From the NCBI GenBank assembly GCA_945873105.1, contig CAMCBW010000016.1, positions 1 through 64,000 of the forward strand: DNA of 64,000 bases, read 5' to 3'. The notes beneath the pieces are model-generated. The model made no database searches and had not been told where the DNA came from. It saw only the letters and a list, made by a program, of their open reading frames with translations. The translations under genes were made by a program, and so were the position numbers. This DNA is from Tangfeifania diversioriginum (GTDB taxonomy: Bacteria > Bacteroidota > Bacteroidia > Bacteroidales > Prolixibacteraceae). This document shows positions 30,620 through 35,529 of the stretch, piece by piece (the stretch's first letter is position 1; each line of letters begins with the position of its first letter).

Positions 30620-32026
30620 ATGATCATTCTTCCGGCATCTTTTGAAAATAGAATGAGCAGGATCCTGGGGCCTGAGTTTCCTGCCTTCCACAGCTCACTC
30701 TCCGCAGACATTCACCATTCAGTTCGATTTAATCCAAAAAAGGTAGTAACCGTTGCAGAACCAAGCCATGTTCCAACTTGCCAGACAGGCTATTACCTTC
30801 CTGTTCGTCCGATTTACACCCTCGATCCGCTCTTTCATGCCGGCCTCTATTATGTGCAGGAATCCAGTTCCATGTTTCTCGAACAATTCCTGGTACAGTC
30901 CAATAAAAAGCAGTTGCGGGTACTCGATCTCTGTGCTGCACCAGGAGGCAAATCGACCCATTTGAGCTCATTGCTTCCCGATGAGGCACTGCTGGTAAGC
31001 AATGAAGTGATTCATTCCCGGGCCATGGTTCTGTCTGAAAACCTCAAGAAATGGGGCAATCCCAATGTCATCGTAACCTGTTGCGACCCGAGGGACTTCT
31101 CCCGGTTGCCCGGATATTTTGATCTGATCGTCGTAGATGCGCCCTGTTCCGGTGAGGGATTGTTCCGGCGCGACCCTTCGGCCATGGAGGAGTGGTCGGA
31201 AGCCAATGCTGCCCATTGCGCACTTCGTCAACGAAGGATCCTGGCAGATGTATGGCCTGCCCTGGCAGAGGGTGGAATGCTGGTTTACAGTACATGCACC
31301 TTCAATCCTGCTGAAAATGAAGAGAACATCAGCTGGCTTAGCGAAACGATGGAAACTGAAGCTGTTGAACTGGAACTCAGGAAGGAGTGGAACATCGTCA
31401 CAACCGATGCCTCCGGGTATCCATGCTACCGCTTTTATCCGCACAATGTGGCCGGAGAAGGTTTTTTTACGGCAGCAGTGATAAAAAAAGAGATCCCAGC
31501 CGTAACATCTCGCTCCAAAAGTAAAACGACGCTGCCCTTGGCAGGGAAAAGCGAACTACACCTGTTAAGTAATCTGCTGCAAAATTTGCCACTTGTTCAG
31601 CTAAAGTTTGAAGAGACATTTTTGGCCTTTCCGTCTGCCCTGTTGTCCGAACTTGAGTTGGTCAAATCCTCTCTTCGGATTGTACATGCCGGTGTAAAGG
31701 TCGGTGAAATCAAACAGGGAAGTCTAATACCTGGACACGAGCTTGCAGTCTCTACCATTGCCAATAAATCCTTCTTTCCATCAGTCGATCTTCCTCTGGA
31801 ACAAGCCATTGGTTTCCTGAAAAGAGAGGATTTTCAACTTAATTGCACGGTGAAAGGCTGGAACCTGATCACCTACCGCAACCACCCAATCGGTTGGGCT
31901 AAAAACATTGGAAACCGATTCAACAACGGTTATCCCAAGGAGTGGCGCATCAGGATGTCCACTTCCGAATACACTGGGGAACGATTGGCAGAAGAGGCCA
32001 GAAAATTTCCCCAAATCACCTTGTAA
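30620..32026 (+). CDS. RsmF/RsmB-type rRNA m5C methyltransferase
   Basis: 468 aa from ATG 30620 (an upstream TTG is in frame but unlikely). NOL1/NOP2/Sun domain (about 1-290): SAM site LDLCAAPGGKSTHLSSLL, motif IV VDAPCSGEG, and catalytic Cys in YSTCTFNPAENE. The C-terminal region (about 320-468) matches the RsmF-type RNA-binding domain (NHPIGWAKNIGNRFNNGYPKEWRI). It methylates C5 of cytosine in 16S rRNA; exact position not determinable. Confidence 0.92.
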   Translation: MIILPASFENRMSRILGPEFPAFHSSLSADIHHSVRFNPKKVVTVAEPSHVPTCQTGYYLPVRPIYTLDPLFHAGLYYVQESSSMFLEQFLVQSNKKQLRVLDLCAAPGGKSTHLSSLLPDEALLVSNEVIHSRAMVLSENLKKWGNPNVIVTCCDPRDFSRLPGYFDLIVVDAPCSGEGLFRRDPSAMEEWSEANAAHCALRQRRILADVWPALAEGGMLVYSTCTFNPAENEENISWLSETMETEAVELELRKEWNIVTTDASGYPCYRFYPHNVAGEGFFTAAVIKKEIPAVTSRSKSKTTLPLAGKSELHLLSNLLQNLPLVQLKFEETFLAFPSALLSELELVKSSLRIVHAGVKVGEIKQGSLIPGHELAVSTIANKSFFPSVDLPLEQAIGFLKREDFQLNCTVKGWNLITYRNHPIGWAKNIGNRFNNGYPKEWRIRMSTSEYTGERLAEEARKFPQITL

Positions 32027-32088
32027 ATGAACTACTTCAACCCGATCTCGATCAGAGATAACTCATCACTTATCACTCATAACTCCTT

Positions 32089-33234
32089 TTAGTCCATTCT
32101 CTCCTTGTAATCACCATACCCAAATTCCCGCAACAGCGTAAAACCCTTCTCCTCACTCCAGATCCCAATGGAAGGGTGAGCAACGCCATTGAACATGGTG
32201 GTTTTTACCACGGTATAATGAATCATGTCTTCAAAAAGGATGGCATCTCCTGACTTTGGCAGCTGGTCAAAAGACCAGTATCCCATGTAGTCGCCCGCCA
32301 GACAAGAATTCCCTCCCATCCGACAGGCAAATTTCCCCGGAACAGCTTCCTGGTAAGCCCCACTGATCCTGGGTTGGTAGGGCATCTCCAGGCAATCTGG
32401 CATATGGGCGGTAAAGGAAACATTCAGGATCGCAGTTCTGATCCCCTTGTTTTCGACCACATCCACCACTGAGGCCAACAAAAAACCAGTCTCCCAGGCA
32501 AAAGCACTCCCCGGTTCCAGTATGACAGATAAATTAGGCCACCTCGATCTAAAAGCTTTCAATACCGTTACCAGATGGTTGGTATCATAGTTCTTGCGGG
32601 TCATCAAATGGCCTCCGCCAAAATTTACCCATTTCAACTGTCCCAGAAATTTTCCAAAGCGGGCTTCAAAAGCCTCGAGGGTCTTCTCCAGATCCTGCGA
32701 AGAGGATTCACACAAAGTATGGAAATGAAATCCCTCCACACCCTCCGGAAGCTGATCGCCCAGCTGATCTGCCGTGATTCCCAGTCTGGCGCCGGGAGCA
32801 CAGGGGTTGTACAATTCGGTTGCAACCTCCGAAAATTCAGGATTGACCCGCAGCCCAACCGTGATGGCTCGCTCATACGCCTTCACACGTTCCCCATAAT
32901 GCGCCAATTGGGTCAATGAATTGAAGGTGATATGGGAAGAGCATTCCAAAACCTGATCAAAATCTGCCTCAGTGAAAGCAGGCGAATAGGTGTGCGCGAG
33001 GGTCTTCATCTCTTCCACGGCAAGCTTGGCTTCATGGGCCCCGCTGGCGGTAGCCCCTGAAACATACTCCCTGACAATCGGAAAGACCTTCCACAAGGAA
33101 AAACCCTTGAAGGCCAGAATGATCTCTACACCGGCCTCCTGGCCCACCCGTTGGATCGTTTCAAGATTCCTGCGCAACAAGCGCTCTTCAATTACATAAC
33201 AGGGATTGGGTATTTGGGAAAAATCGATGGCCAT
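32089..33234 (-). CDS. nspC: Carboxynorspermidine decarboxylase
   Basis: 381 aa. PLP-binding Lys43 in LAFKGFSLW, N-terminal PNPCYVIEE, HTLCESSSQD and NFGGGHLMT (phosphate-binding Gly loop), and the active-site Cys/Asp region RMGGNSCLAGDYMGYWSFD. A fold-III decarboxylase making norspermidine or spermidine from the carboxylated form. Its usual partner, carboxynorspermidine dehydrogenase, is not adjacent. The 60 bp downstream hold another word repeat (ACTCATCACTTATCACTCAT). Confidence 0.94.
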   Translation of the reverse strand: MAIDFSQIPNPCYVIEERLLRRNLETIQRVGQEAGVEIILAFKGFSLWKVFPIVREYVSGATASGAHEAKLAVEEMKTLAHTYSPAFTEADFDQVLECSSHITFNSLTQLAHYGERVKAYERAITVGLRVNPEFSEVATELYNPCAPGARLGITADQLGDQLPEGVEGFHFHTLCESSSQDLEKTLEAFEARFGKFLGQLKWVNFGGGHLMTRKNYDTNHLVTVLKAFRSRWPNLSVILEPGSAFAWETGFLLASVVDVVENKGIRTAILNVSFTAHMPDCLEMPYQPRISGAYQEAVPGKFACRMGGNSCLAGDYMGYWSFDQLPKSGDAILFEDMIHYTVVKTTMFNGVAHPSIGIWSEEKGFTLLREFGYGDYKERMD

Positions 33235-33237
33235 AGC

Positions 33238-33281
33238 AATGTGAAAATTTGGAAATGTGAAAATTTGGAAATGTGAAAATT
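33238..33281. repeat. Word repeat GTGAAAATTTGGAAAT, three copies
   Basis: Three tandem copies of a 15-bp word directly upstream of nspC, unpaired here. The remaining DNA to 33615 is AT-rich with no supported ORF; it should contain the promoter of the peptide genes that follow, but I see no clear consensus. Confidence 0.75.
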
Positions 33282-33615
33282 ATTGCAAGGCAAAATTTAT
33301 GCGCAAAAATTCGTTTTTGTCATCTAAATGTCTTAAATTTAAGGGAGTAAACGCGTTCTGCCAATATTATTTTCCAAGGCAAAGATAAAATTATTTGGCC
33401 AAACTGGTTTCCACTCCAAACATTCGTTCTTTGCATCCGAACTCCACCACCCTCTCTCCTGCTCGAAAAAATTTTGTGGTGATCCTCAAAATAAATGCTT
33501 CCCTATCATCTTATGAGAGTGAACGACCGTAAATTTATAGTGAGTTTCGTGCACACAACTTAGGCAGATCCGAAAAGCCTGAAAAAGAGTAGGGTTAATT
33601 CAATACTTTACAACC

Positions 33616-33783
33616 ATGAAAGAGTTGGAAAAAAGTGAAATGATGGTCTTAAATGGTGGGAACCAACCAGTGGCTACTTATCTTACTGCGGAACAAATCA
33701 CAGCTGCAGGCGATGCAATCGTAAATACAGGTGCTTTTATTCTTGGAGTTGTTTGCGGCTTTTTTGGATTTAAACTTCTTTAA
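33616..33783 (+). CDS. Double-glycine-leader peptide 1 (bacteriocin-like)
   Basis: 55 aa. Residues 1-15 (MKELEKSEMMVLNGG) form a class-II-type leader ending in Gly-Gly, the cleavage site of PCAT-type peptidase ABC transporters. The predicted 40-aa mature peptide starts NQPVATYL and ends in a hydrophobic Gly-rich helix with a GVVCG (GxxxG) motif and a final FKLL. GxxxG motifs and paired genes are hallmarks of class IIb two-peptide bacteriocins. It is 2 bp upstream of peptide 2. No transporter lies in the window. Product function is inferred. Confidence 0.8.
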   Translation: MKELEKSEMMVLNGGNQPVATYLTAEQITAAGDAIVNTGAFILGVVCGFFGFKLL

Positions 33784-33785
33784 TC

Positions 33786-33956
33786 ATGGAAAACACAATC
33801 TCAATTTCCAAATCATTTGGCATTTTAGATAAAGATGAATTGTGCTTAATACAAGGTGGCACAATTCAAGAATCTTATGATGCAGGTTATAAATTAGGTC
33901 AATACCTCAGACAACTATGGGATAGCTGGGGTGTTATAAAATGGATTTTTGCATAA
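33786..33956 (+). CDS. Double-glycine-leader peptide 2 (bacteriocin-like)
   Basis: 56 aa. Leader of 25 residues ending DKDELCLIQGG (hydrophobics at -4, -7 and -12 as usual for GG leaders). The 31-aa mature peptide starts TIQESYDAGYKLG, with GYKLG giving one GxxxG, and ends in a Trp-rich amphipathic tail (LWDSWGVIKWIFA). It starts 2 bp after the peptide 1 stop codon and is followed by a strong hairpin, so the two peptides form their own transcript. Reading frame, leader and position agree; activity is unproven. Confidence 0.8.
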   Translation: MENTISISKSFGILDKDELCLIQGGTIQESYDAGYKLGQYLRQLWDSWGVIKWIFA

Positions 33957-33960
33957 AATA

Positions 33961-34000
33961 AATGGCAGGTATTTCAATTTTGTAACCAATACCTGCCATT
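33961..34000 (+). terminator. Hairpin terminator after the two peptide genes
   Basis: A perfect 13-bp stem (AATGGCAGGTATT at 33961-33973 with AATACCTGCCATT at 33988-34000), 14-nt loop, followed by ATGCCTTTTTG. It starts 4 bp after the peptide 2 stop codon. Partial read-through would let the CPBP gene be expressed from the same promoter. Confidence 0.85.
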
Positions 34001-34080
34001 ATGCCTTTTTGTCAAATCACCTTGCAGAATTATGAGAAGGTACTATTCATCCTCCTATTTGACTATACTTTATTAAAAAC

Positions 34081-34731
34081 ATGATGACAGAATTCCTTAA
34101 TTTCCTAAAAAATCCAACTTGTAGTACAAAGTTCTATAAACCCAATTTTTACCACTTGCTGAATTTGTTCATTTTATACATATTTTCAGTGATCATGTTA
34201 GGCGTTTTCGCCTATATGATATCTCAAATTTTTGGCATTTCGCACAATAAGATTGATTTATCATTTTCAAAAAAAATATTAATCGGTTTTCTCTTAGCAC
34301 CAATTTATGAAGAGATTTTTTTTAGATCACTCTTGAAATTTAACAACCAAAATATATCACTTTTCATGCTAAATCTATCTGGATTTGTAGCTTGGGCAGT
34401 TATCAAAGAAAAACCTGAACTCCTAATTGTGACATCATTCATTCTTTTGACGACGATTTCACTAGTCATGGCATTAAAAAGAGAAATCATATCGAAGTGG
34501 ATTTCAGCAAACATTAAACCTCTCTTTTATCTCACTTCTCTCCTTTTTGGATTATTTCATGTTATTAATTTTTCGGGTAACTTTTGGCTAATACTTTTAT
34601 TTTCAGCAATTTTATGTAGTCCGCAGATAATTGCAGGTTTAATTCTTGGCTATATTCGATTGAAATATGGTCTGGTATATGCAATATTGTTCCATATGCT
34701 GATTAATTCCTCCATCTTAATTGTTCCTTGA
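34081..34731 (+). CDS. CPBP-family intramembrane metalloprotease (Abi), likely immunity or processing
   Basis: 216 aa, about six or seven transmembrane helices. The CPBP motifs are all present: EExxxR (Glu77, Glu78, Arg82) in APIYEEIFFRSLL, FxxxH (Phe156, His160) in FGLFHVINF, and HxxxN (His205, Asn209) in FHMLINS. CPBP proteases often accompany bacteriocins, where they act in self-immunity or peptide maturation. It lies 80 bp after the peptide-gene terminator and shares the island's low GC content. ATG 34084 is an alternative start. Confidence 0.88.
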   Translation: MMTEFLNFLKNPTCSTKFYKPNFYHLLNLFILYIFSVIMLGVFAYMISQIFGISHNKIDLSFSKKILIGFLLAPIYEEIFFRSLLKFNNQNISLFMLNLSGFVAWAVIKEKPELLIVTSFILLTTISLVMALKREIISKWISANIKPLFYLTSLLFGLFHVINFSGNFWLILLFSAILCSPQIIAGLILGYIRLKYGLVYAILFHMLINSSILIVP

Positions 34732-34818
34732 GTATCAAATGAATTGTCAACTGAATTTATCTCTAAATTGTGATTCCATTACGCCTTATCAATCCAATAA
34801 AACATTTAAGGCCTAACT

Positions 34819-34953
34819 ATGAAAGCAATCAATATTAACATTTTACGAAATAAAGCAAGAGTCCTTCTAATATGGACAACAGCTCTTCTGTTTGGGAAAT
34901 ATGTTTTGGGAAATTGGGACAAGATCAAAACTTTTGTAATCAATGCGATTTAA
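34819..34953 (+). CDS. Single-helix micro-protein A (possible immunity peptide)
   Basis: 44 aa: a basic N-terminus (KAININILRNKAR), one hydrophobic helix (about 15-31, VLLIWTTALLFGKYVLG), then NWDKIKTFVINAI. It resembles the next ORF in layout and in the C-terminal pattern WDxIxxFV/I. Small one-helix proteins beside bacteriocin genes are often immunity factors, but there is no direct evidence here. Being short, it could be chance; the resemblance to its neighbour is the main support. Confidence 0.5.
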   Translation: MKAININILRNKARVLLIWTTALLFGKYVLGNWDKIKTFVINAI

Positions 34954-34977
34954 AACCCTCTTTACACAGAAGATTAT

Positions 34978-35109
34978 ATGAAAAATTCAAATCGGGCAAA
35001 GGCAACTCGGAAAGAAATAATATCTTTCATTGCGGTATGCTCTATCTCATTTTACATTTTTTCAAAATGGGATGCAATAGAACGATTTATCTTTCAATTG
35101 TTTAAATAA
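34978..35109 (+). CDS. Single-helix micro-protein B, paralogue-like of A
   Basis: 43 aa: basic N-terminus (NRAKATRK), hydrophobic helix (about 14-29, IISFIAVCSISFYIFS), then KWDAIERFIFQLFK. It shares the pattern helix - WD - xI - xxF - V/I with micro-protein A, 24 bp upstream. An overlapping ORF in another frame (start at 34872) is less credible because it lacks these features. Likely the same transcript as A. Confidence 0.5.
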   Translation: MKNSNRAKATRKEIISFIAVCSISFYIFSKWDAIERFIFQLFK

Positions 35110-35144
35110 GGTATCTATTATCGATAATCCACCCACCTGCCTCC

Positions 35145-35235
35145 AGAACCCTTCAAAACTTTTCAAACAATTCAAACCCTTTAAACCCTTCAAACTTTTC
35201 AAACCCTTCAAACCTTTCAAACCTTTCAATCCCTT
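35145..35235. repeat. Tandem word repeat TTCAAACCC (about ten copies)
   Basis: Ten or so copies of TTCAAACCC / TTCAAACTTTT / TTCAAACCTT with a period of about 10 bp, ending at the stop codon of the DciA-like gene. It separates the AT-rich peptide island from the housekeeping genes. Confidence 0.85.
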
Positions 35236-35238
35236 CGT

Positions 35239-35529
35239 TCATTTCAGCACAATTGCCTTCACAATGGTTCGTCCGGCATGGTCGTTCATGGCCCTTATAA
35301 TATCGTTGCGCATCATGAAGAGCTCGTTGCGGACAATGGAGGAGCTAAGGCTGACATACAACGTTTCATTCTTGATAAAGATGGAGGTGGTGGCTCGTGC
35401 AATCGGTTTCCCAATGATAAATTCCCAGGAGGTGATGGCATCCACTTCCGCCAGCTTCCTGTCAAATTTCGACTCTTTCAGAAAGGTTTTTATGGCACTT
35501 CCCAAAGAATGGATCTCACTTCGTCTCAT
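35239..35529 (-). CDS. DUF721 / DciA-like protein
   Basis: 96 aa. Pattern IxxLxxAIKTFLKES...KLAEVDAITSWEFIIGKPIARATTSIFIKNETLYVSLSSS..RNEL matches DUF721, the family of the replicative-helicase loader DciA. Its start overlaps the recF stop by 4 bp, so both are translated together. RecF plus DUF721 is a known neighbourhood in Bacteroidota and fits a role in replication or repair. Confidence 0.88.
   Translation of the reverse strand: MRRSEIHSLGSAIKTFLKESKFDRKLAEVDAITSWEFIIGKPIARATTSIFIKNETLYVSLSSSIVRNELFMMRNDIIRAMNDHAGRTIVKAIVLK

Follow-up and report, generated by a model that had tools for sequence, protein, structure and literature searches.

Most known two-peptide bacteriocins come from Gram-positive bacteria. 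Those of class IIb, such as lactococcin G and plantaricin EF/JK, have cationic cores, as classical bacteriocins do. The gene set described here is located in the window, that is, the whole stretch of 64,000 nucleotides of Tangfeifania diversioriginum that was analysed. It resembles the class IIb systems in its two adjoining precursors with double-glycine (GG) leaders, in the GxxxG motif of both cores, in the CPBP (Abi) gene of the cluster and, in relatives, in a C39 ABC exporter with an HlyD-type partner. It differs from them in belonging to the Bacteroidota, in its neutral to slightly acidic cores, in the lack of a curated match for the window peptides, and in its unlinked exporter, apparently orphan micro-proteins and RNA leader.

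Class II bacteriocins have already been shown or predicted in Bacteroidota (PMC6671954; PMC12648078, IIBacFinder preview). The bacteroidetocins are comparable in phylum, short GG leader (15–16 aa) and C39 ABC exporter, but they are single class IIa-like Cys peptides, accompanied by a TM protein and a thiol oxidoreductase and lacking an immunity protein (PMC6671954). The window set has two peptides, no cysteine pattern (one Cys in the core of peptide 1, none in that of peptide 2) and a CPBP gene, and neither a TM protein nor a thiol oxidoreductase gene of the bacteroidetocin type was found in the island. The CdzC/CdzD system of Caulobacter, likened here by description, also consists of two proteins in a Gram-negative host, with glycine zippers, secretion by a type I system and a small membrane immunity protein; it differs in being surface-associated and killing by contact, and in having the small membrane protein CdzI (PMC5380434).

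Among the titles and abstract beginnings searched, with most subscription journals outside this scope, neither a two-peptide/CPBP set in Bacteroidota nor a GG-bearing winged-helix protein was described; the further literature comprised Hungate1000 (PMC13289728), RiPP mining (PMC10352776) and angicin (PMC8692603). The term "undescribed", used in the preliminary description of this DNA, therefore fits the two-peptide/CPBP architecture only, since class II bacteriocins as such have precedents in the phylum.

The AT-rich island and its genes

The island had a G+C fraction of 0.30–0.36 (500-base windows, positions 33500–35249) vs 0.45–0.52 at positions 31000–33249. Its left neighbour is nspC; on the right a gene of 96 aa, which we take to be DUF721, intervenes before recF. 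Short repeats were seen by eye at both edges (33240–33280 and 35140–35235), the right one with counterparts in the congeners G002, G003 and G005. Regarding a plasmid origin, neither CPBP nor peptide 1 had a tblastn match in 72,556 plasmid records. A phage origin was also discarded: the match of peptide 1 to Pfam Phage_Coat_B was sub-threshold (22.3 vs 23.5 bits) and was read as hydrophobic-helix resemblance, and 26 pattern matches for CPBP relatives in viral contigs yielded none that was confirmed.

All features are on the forward strand. A conserved block common to other GG-peptide loci (33488–33560), probably a promoter region, is followed by a DUF805b RNA element (Rfam RF02914, 33561–33595; 38.4 bits vs a gathering score of 35.6), located 20 nt before peptide 1. 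The precursor of peptide 1 (33616–33783, 55 aa) has homologs in G062, G305, G321 and Bacteroidales S147_9; its leader, MKELEKSEMMVLNGG (33616–33660), ends in Gly-Gly (codons 33655–33660) and precedes a 40-aa core. The precursor of peptide 2 (33786–33956, 56 aa) has a leader also ending in Gly-Gly (33786–33860) and a 31-aa core. As previously described, both ORFs are short and carry GG leaders, and each mature part has exactly one GxxxG motif, GVVCG in peptide 1 and GYKLG in peptide 2. A CPBP intramembrane protease (34081–34731, 216 aa) and micro-proteins 1 (34819–34953, 44 aa, with a short hydrophobic stretch and a W[DE] motif) and 2 (34978–35109, 43 aa, of the same family) follow. All five ORFs are open.

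Shuffled mature peptides contained GxxxG in 40% (peptide 1) and 17% (peptide 2) of trials. GxxxG by itself is thus within chance expectation, and the case for the peptides rests on conservation among relatives. Over five aligned rows of peptide 1, Gly14-Gly15 and Gly44 were invariant, a GxxxG that includes Gly44 was present in all rows and Gly48 in four; in the five rows of peptide 2 both GG and GxxxG were invariant. The Gly-Gly and GxxxG positions, at which the preliminary description asked for purifying selection, are kept.

With respect to class IIb, the precursor genes were adjoining and co-directional in the window and in four relatives, GG was invariant, a C39 exporter of the same clade was present in the own genome and beside three of the four other clusters, and GxxxG occurred in both cores in all rows. 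A CPBP gene, as a candidate for the dedicated immunity protein, was present in all five clusters. The net charge of the cores was −1 (peptide 1) and 0 (peptide 2), that is, not cationic. No curated NCBIfam model matched the window peptides, and peptide 2 scored 14.1 bits against PF10439 (cut-off 27.1); peptide A of a relative with the same kind of cluster (G070) passed the class IIb model TIGR03949 (33.4 vs 21.5). The class IIb reading hence stands for gene order, GG and GxxxG positions and exporter clade, but not for charge or model membership.

The CPBP protein scored 31.6 bits against Pfam PF02517 (cut-off 22.4), and residues E77, E78, R82, F156, H160, H205 and N209, to which we assign the motif names EExxxR, FxxxH and HxxxN, were invariant in a six-row alignment, which places it in the Rce1-like (CPBP) family and bears out the earlier claim of a protease with all catalytic motifs. 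Its identity to five relatives was 39–46%, and four of these lie directly after a pep1-pep2 pair; the homologs begin at the second Met of the window ORF (34084). Abi proteins were reportedly linked to self-immunity by Kjos and co-workers in 2010. The CPBP protein is a probable self-immunity protein of the pep1-pep2 cassette. With NCBIfam NF052640 (M949_0222 family) it has whole-length similarity but is far under the curated cut-off (70.1 bits vs 220), three of its relatives scoring 55.6–60.6 bits. A Riemerella CPBP gene, M949_RS01035, possibly the gene of that model, is linked to LPS (PMC6142336).

The perfect 13-bp hairpin claimed previously was found between peptide 2 and CPBP (33961–34000, loop of 14 nt) and is a probable terminator or attenuator. 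The hairpin stretches had RNA folding z values of −4.0 and −5.1, with none of 200 shuffles as stable. A perfect stem of 13–16 bp was present between pep2 and CPBP in four of the five loci (reached by 0/200 shuffles), that of S147_9 having a 60-nt loop; the stem in G305 was of 8 bp (reached by 97/200 shuffles). A standard terminator scan of the window called no terminator, because the 14-nt loop exceeds its limit.

Recurrence of the gene set and its exporter

The gene order pep1-pep2-CPBP was found in five loci: the window, G062 (Prolixibacteraceae UBA6029, locus L060), G305 (L063), G321 and Bacteroidales S147_9 (L062). The co-occurrence of the peptides with the CPBP gene in relatives, which the preliminary description had proposed to examine, is thus documented in four other genomes, and the refutation it had named, a lack of such recurrence, did not come about. 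The clusters of G062, G321 and S147_9 also contain HlyD and the C39 exporter; that of G305 includes the small winged-helix gene, and its contig breaks off about 0.4 kb further on.

The set is rare. Peptide 2 was found in 2 of 140 family genomes by search, in 3 of 344 order genomes with a two-row profile and in 2 of 395 class genomes with a five-row profile, the own genome included each time; the other class genome, G738, matched only in part. With a CPBP profile of six rows, the own gene was the only one detected in the 395 class genomes at E ≤ 1e-30. No congener had peptide 2 or a close CPBP, G002 having only a partial match (34%). Scanning one genome per species over 84,980 species with the CPBP alignment gave 21 loci, four of them with 43–46% identity over nearly the whole length and three others with 43–50% over short parts only. 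Counting the window, five of six close CPBP genes were directly 3' of a pep1-pep2 pair, and the sixth, in Cfx3-03 (L061), had no peptide genes tagged within ±5 kb. Within 2.2 kb of the 17 more distant CPBP loci, a strict GG pattern, which missed a few true GG peptides elsewhere, tagged nothing, and a looser one tagged three isolated ORFs and no GG-peptide pair. Two further genomes had parts of the set: G145, with HlyD, exporter and winged helix followed by two peptides resembling pep1 and pep2 and without CPBP, and G128, with the exporter and a pep1 homolog before the contig end.

The own genome has two C39 proteins. One of them, an open gene at C1:245 kb accompanied by HlyD and a winged-helix gene, shared 61% identity with the G062 exporter and 55–56% with the exporters of S147_9 and G321; the second C39 protein was 30–31% identical to these three. 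With TIGR01193 ("peptide cleavage/export", cut-off 523.85), the G062 exporter passed (562.2) and the own C1 exporter was just below (521.3). An HlyD/C39 exporter of the clade of the pep1-pep2 clusters is therefore present elsewhere in the genome, on another contig, as the preliminary description had suggested checking. No GG-peptide gene was tagged beside it in the fetched stretch, so export in trans is assumed, and the C1:245 kb exporter would be the one that exports the window peptides.

The winged-helix gene beside the own exporter was located at L024:5292–5612 on the reverse strand (C1:243291–243611). Genes of this type (about 105 aa) were found in 60 of 140 family genomes, many of the weaker matches being shorter and without the tail; the homologs analysed were L092–L119, L021, L058, L059 and L085. 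An exporter ORF directly upstream was flagged in 19 of 30 fetched loci, an undercount, as the own genome and G128 have the exporter and were unflagged. GG was present near position 89 in 27 of the 30 loci (L111 and L121 end before it, L120 lacks it), and in an alignment that omitted L111, L118, L120 and L121 and included three loci from other searches, it was invariant (29/29 rows). The 12 residues preceding it resembled GG leaders in score: relative to 563 GG sites taken from other ORFs, 27 of 29 rows were above the 95th percentile and 17 above the 99th, although the mean score of 3.4 was well below that of the 36 leaders that trained the score (19.8); the own protein scored 0.3, about the 99th percentile. 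The AlphaFold model was a winged helix with a C-terminal helix (81–101), with a mean pLDDT of 83 and of 50–61 at the end. A PDB fold search with it returned no match at E ≤ 0.001 (best 0.05). The protein is possibly a regulator that would be cleaved by the exporter.

Shared 5' module, variable chromosomal site and micro-proteins

The upstream block (−127 to −56 from the start of peptide 1) was 84–89% identical over aligned positions to those of the congeners G002 and G006 and of two own contigs, C21 and C31, and 75% identical to that of G062. Among the GG-peptide loci compared with the window, the stretch from DUF805b to the start was 80–93% identical, and the leader DNA agreed in 32–37 of 45 nt vs 8–14 of the next 45 nt in register. 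The window/G002 BLAST alignment stopped at 33659, inside the Gly-Gly codons, and those with G006, C21 and C31 slightly earlier, within the leader. As block, RNA and leader are shared and the cores different, the cores look exchanged; the core of G062 is a true pep1 homolog (66/98 aligned positions further downstream), so this reading rests on G002, G006, C21 and C31. The data point to cores exchanged behind a kept leader, or to cores diverging fast, and the former is the reading adopted.

In own C21, own C31, G062, G145, G006 and G004, a GG-peptide gene likewise begins about 20 nt after DUF805b; of three GG genes located behind a copy in G033 (L025), two are preceded by it in this way and one is about 210 nt away. 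It was present in 102 of the 140 genomes of the family, and in 58 of them it scored over the cut-off. Specificity of the element for GG peptides was rejected, since inspection by eye of 35 loci (L015–L020 and L027–L055, L018 being the window's own copy) showed only 7 that precede GG peptides; the scripted GG tags at these loci included two false and one missed. The first ATG ORF (≥28 aa, within 60 nt) started 15–28 nt downstream in 34 of the 35 loci, an uncontrolled count. The genes after DUF805b were very different, comprising GG peptides, membrane proteins and others, some of which are presumably NVEALA-like secreted peptides. The stretch alone folded no more stably than shuffles (z −0.5), and DUF805b looks like a general 5' element in Prolixibacteraceae.

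The junction between nspC and DUF721 (window 33235–35238) was compared at loci L185, L186, L156, L159 and L161. Of seven congeners, two carried other GG cassettes and three had none; the remaining two were G004, where a contig end interrupts the site, and G001, in which no match was obtained. The cassette of G002 comprised a peptide A with INDWDNFERGF, a second GG peptide and a micro-protein, and that of G006 a peptide A with SDWENFERGLFG plus a micro-protein, listed with a TTG start. At the junction G003 has only about 65 bp, G005 about 170 bp and G007 about 15 bp. Other arrangements of GG peptides were also observed: own C21 has a GG-peptide pair with a 32-aa ORF between (L022:230–705); G033 (L025, L089, L090) has many different GG peptides around an HlyD/C39 exporter, with repeated segments, the repeated ORF copies being, we assume, transposase-like; and in G738 (L085:5800–7130) GG-peptide genes, three CPBP genes and one micro-protein accompany an HlyD and a C39 exporter that appear as separate pieces.

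Micro-protein 2 was most similar to the micro-protein of G006 at the same chromosomal site (z 18.0), with DNA similarity at 35045–35110, and micro-protein 1 to one of G007 beside a GG peptide (z 14.5). Searches matched 44 of 140 family genomes at E ≤ 0.05, most weakly and few strongly; of the matches under 1e-3, that in G088 is not a micro-protein and that in G122 is near GG peptides and a CPBP gene, without the W motif. Seven micro-proteins outside the window (two in G070, one each in G111, G007, G738, G002 and G006) were about 1 kb or less from GG peptides of the "WD/WE" type, those of G070 and G738 not being independent finds because both were in the search profile. When micro-proteins were compared with the neighbouring WD-type core in six pairs, with G006 left out, 2–24 of 1000 shuffles were as good in five and 41 of 1000 in one. 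In six micro-protein/peptide loci, the K/E agreement four residues after W had a permutation probability of 1 in 15, which is suggestive only. In own C21, the 32-aa micro-ORF nearly reproduces the core of the first, neighbouring peptide and has no leader (z 16.7).

Immunity to the window pair as a role for the micro-proteins found no support in similarity, none that was clear being detected to the window peptides (201, 814, 89 and 19 of 1000 shuffles as good). The preliminary description had included them in the set: two similar micro-ORFs do exist, but they seem not to belong with this pair, as their family recurs beside another GG-peptide type and the closest relative of micro-protein 2 is at the same site in a congener with a different peptide. 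We read them as probable remnants of the immunity to another bacteriocin, with products that would imitate a bacteriocin core and that are orphans in the window.

Interpretation and significance

The best explanation, which we hold to be probable, is that the island is a chromosomal bacteriocin cassette, with antagonism as its predicted function. Peptides 1 and 2 would be made with GG leaders from one message starting with the shared DUF805b leader; the HlyD/C39-peptidase ABC exporter encoded elsewhere in the genome would remove the leaders and export cores of 40 and 31 residues, and these, with a GxxxG helix in each, would jointly attack the membrane of close relatives. The CPBP protease would protect the producer, and the hairpin in front may lower its expression. 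The micro-proteins would be leftover immunity to the different GG-peptide type present at this site in sibling species. Observed are the gene set and its recurrence, the conservation of GG and GxxxG, an own exporter of the matching clade, the common leader module, and cassettes that differ or are missing at the site; the joint transcript, the cleavage of the leaders, export in trans, the pairing of the cores, killing and all immunity roles of the cassette are predictions.

It is rather unlikely that the GG peptides are secreted pheromone-like signals, not antibacterial, which CPBP processes or degrades. Signalling peptides, too, are made with GG leaders and exported by C39 exporters (PMC7018657), and several different small GG peptides lie behind one leader module in this genome (window, C21 and C31). 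Nevertheless, no sensor kinase was noticed in an overview of the peptide-carrying loci, short of annotating each ORF, the combination of differing cores after a similar leader with CPBP or with small membrane proteins fits toxin/immunity exchange, and the G070 peptide matches a class IIb bacteriocin model.

That CPBP is a peptide maturation enzyme instead of the immunity protein is unlikely. Its catalytic residues are retained, and the CAAX protease SilX is tied to production of the bacteriocin angicin (PMC9298176); however, the CPBP of Cfx3-03 occurs with no tagged peptide genes within ±5 kb, as an orphan immunity gene would, and small membrane proteins occupy the CPBP position in G070 and G002, so the exporter type seemingly needs no protease. 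That the cassette is a remnant, decaying or silent for want of a working exporter, is improbable: no exporter adjoins the cassette, three congeners lack a cassette at the site and the micro-proteins look orphaned, but all ORFs are open with GG and catalytic residues retained, and an open exporter gene accompanied by HlyD and a winged-helix gene is present in the genome. The reading that only CPBP is real, and that the short ORFs and the hairpin arose by chance in AT-rich DNA, is already refuted, very short as the ORFs are and frequent as GxxxG is by chance, by peptides and gene order recurring in four other genomes, micro-protein relatives with z up to 18 and a hairpin recurring in four of five loci.

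Three leads from the putative bacteriocin cassette are the most interesting: the site with its variable content, the micro-proteins that resemble cores, and the winged helix with its GG. Taken together they would describe a modular antagonism, in which a fixed launch module (promoter, DUF805b RNA and leader) is kept, cores and matching immunity genes are swapped at the Gly-Gly, leaderless micro-proteins mimic cores and thereby give immunity, and a C-terminal C39 cleavage site of the winged-helix regulator beside the exporter feeds export back on gene control; this wider proposal is tentative, and we regard it as more doubtful than probable. The conserved two-peptide and CPBP set in environmental Bacteroidota provides testable peptides and a testable candidate for self-protection, and the congeners with other or no cassettes are natural indicator strains. 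The boundary between leader and core opens the question of how bacteriocin specificity gets exchanged, and the core-like micro-proteins that of whether small toxin imitations can confer immunity.
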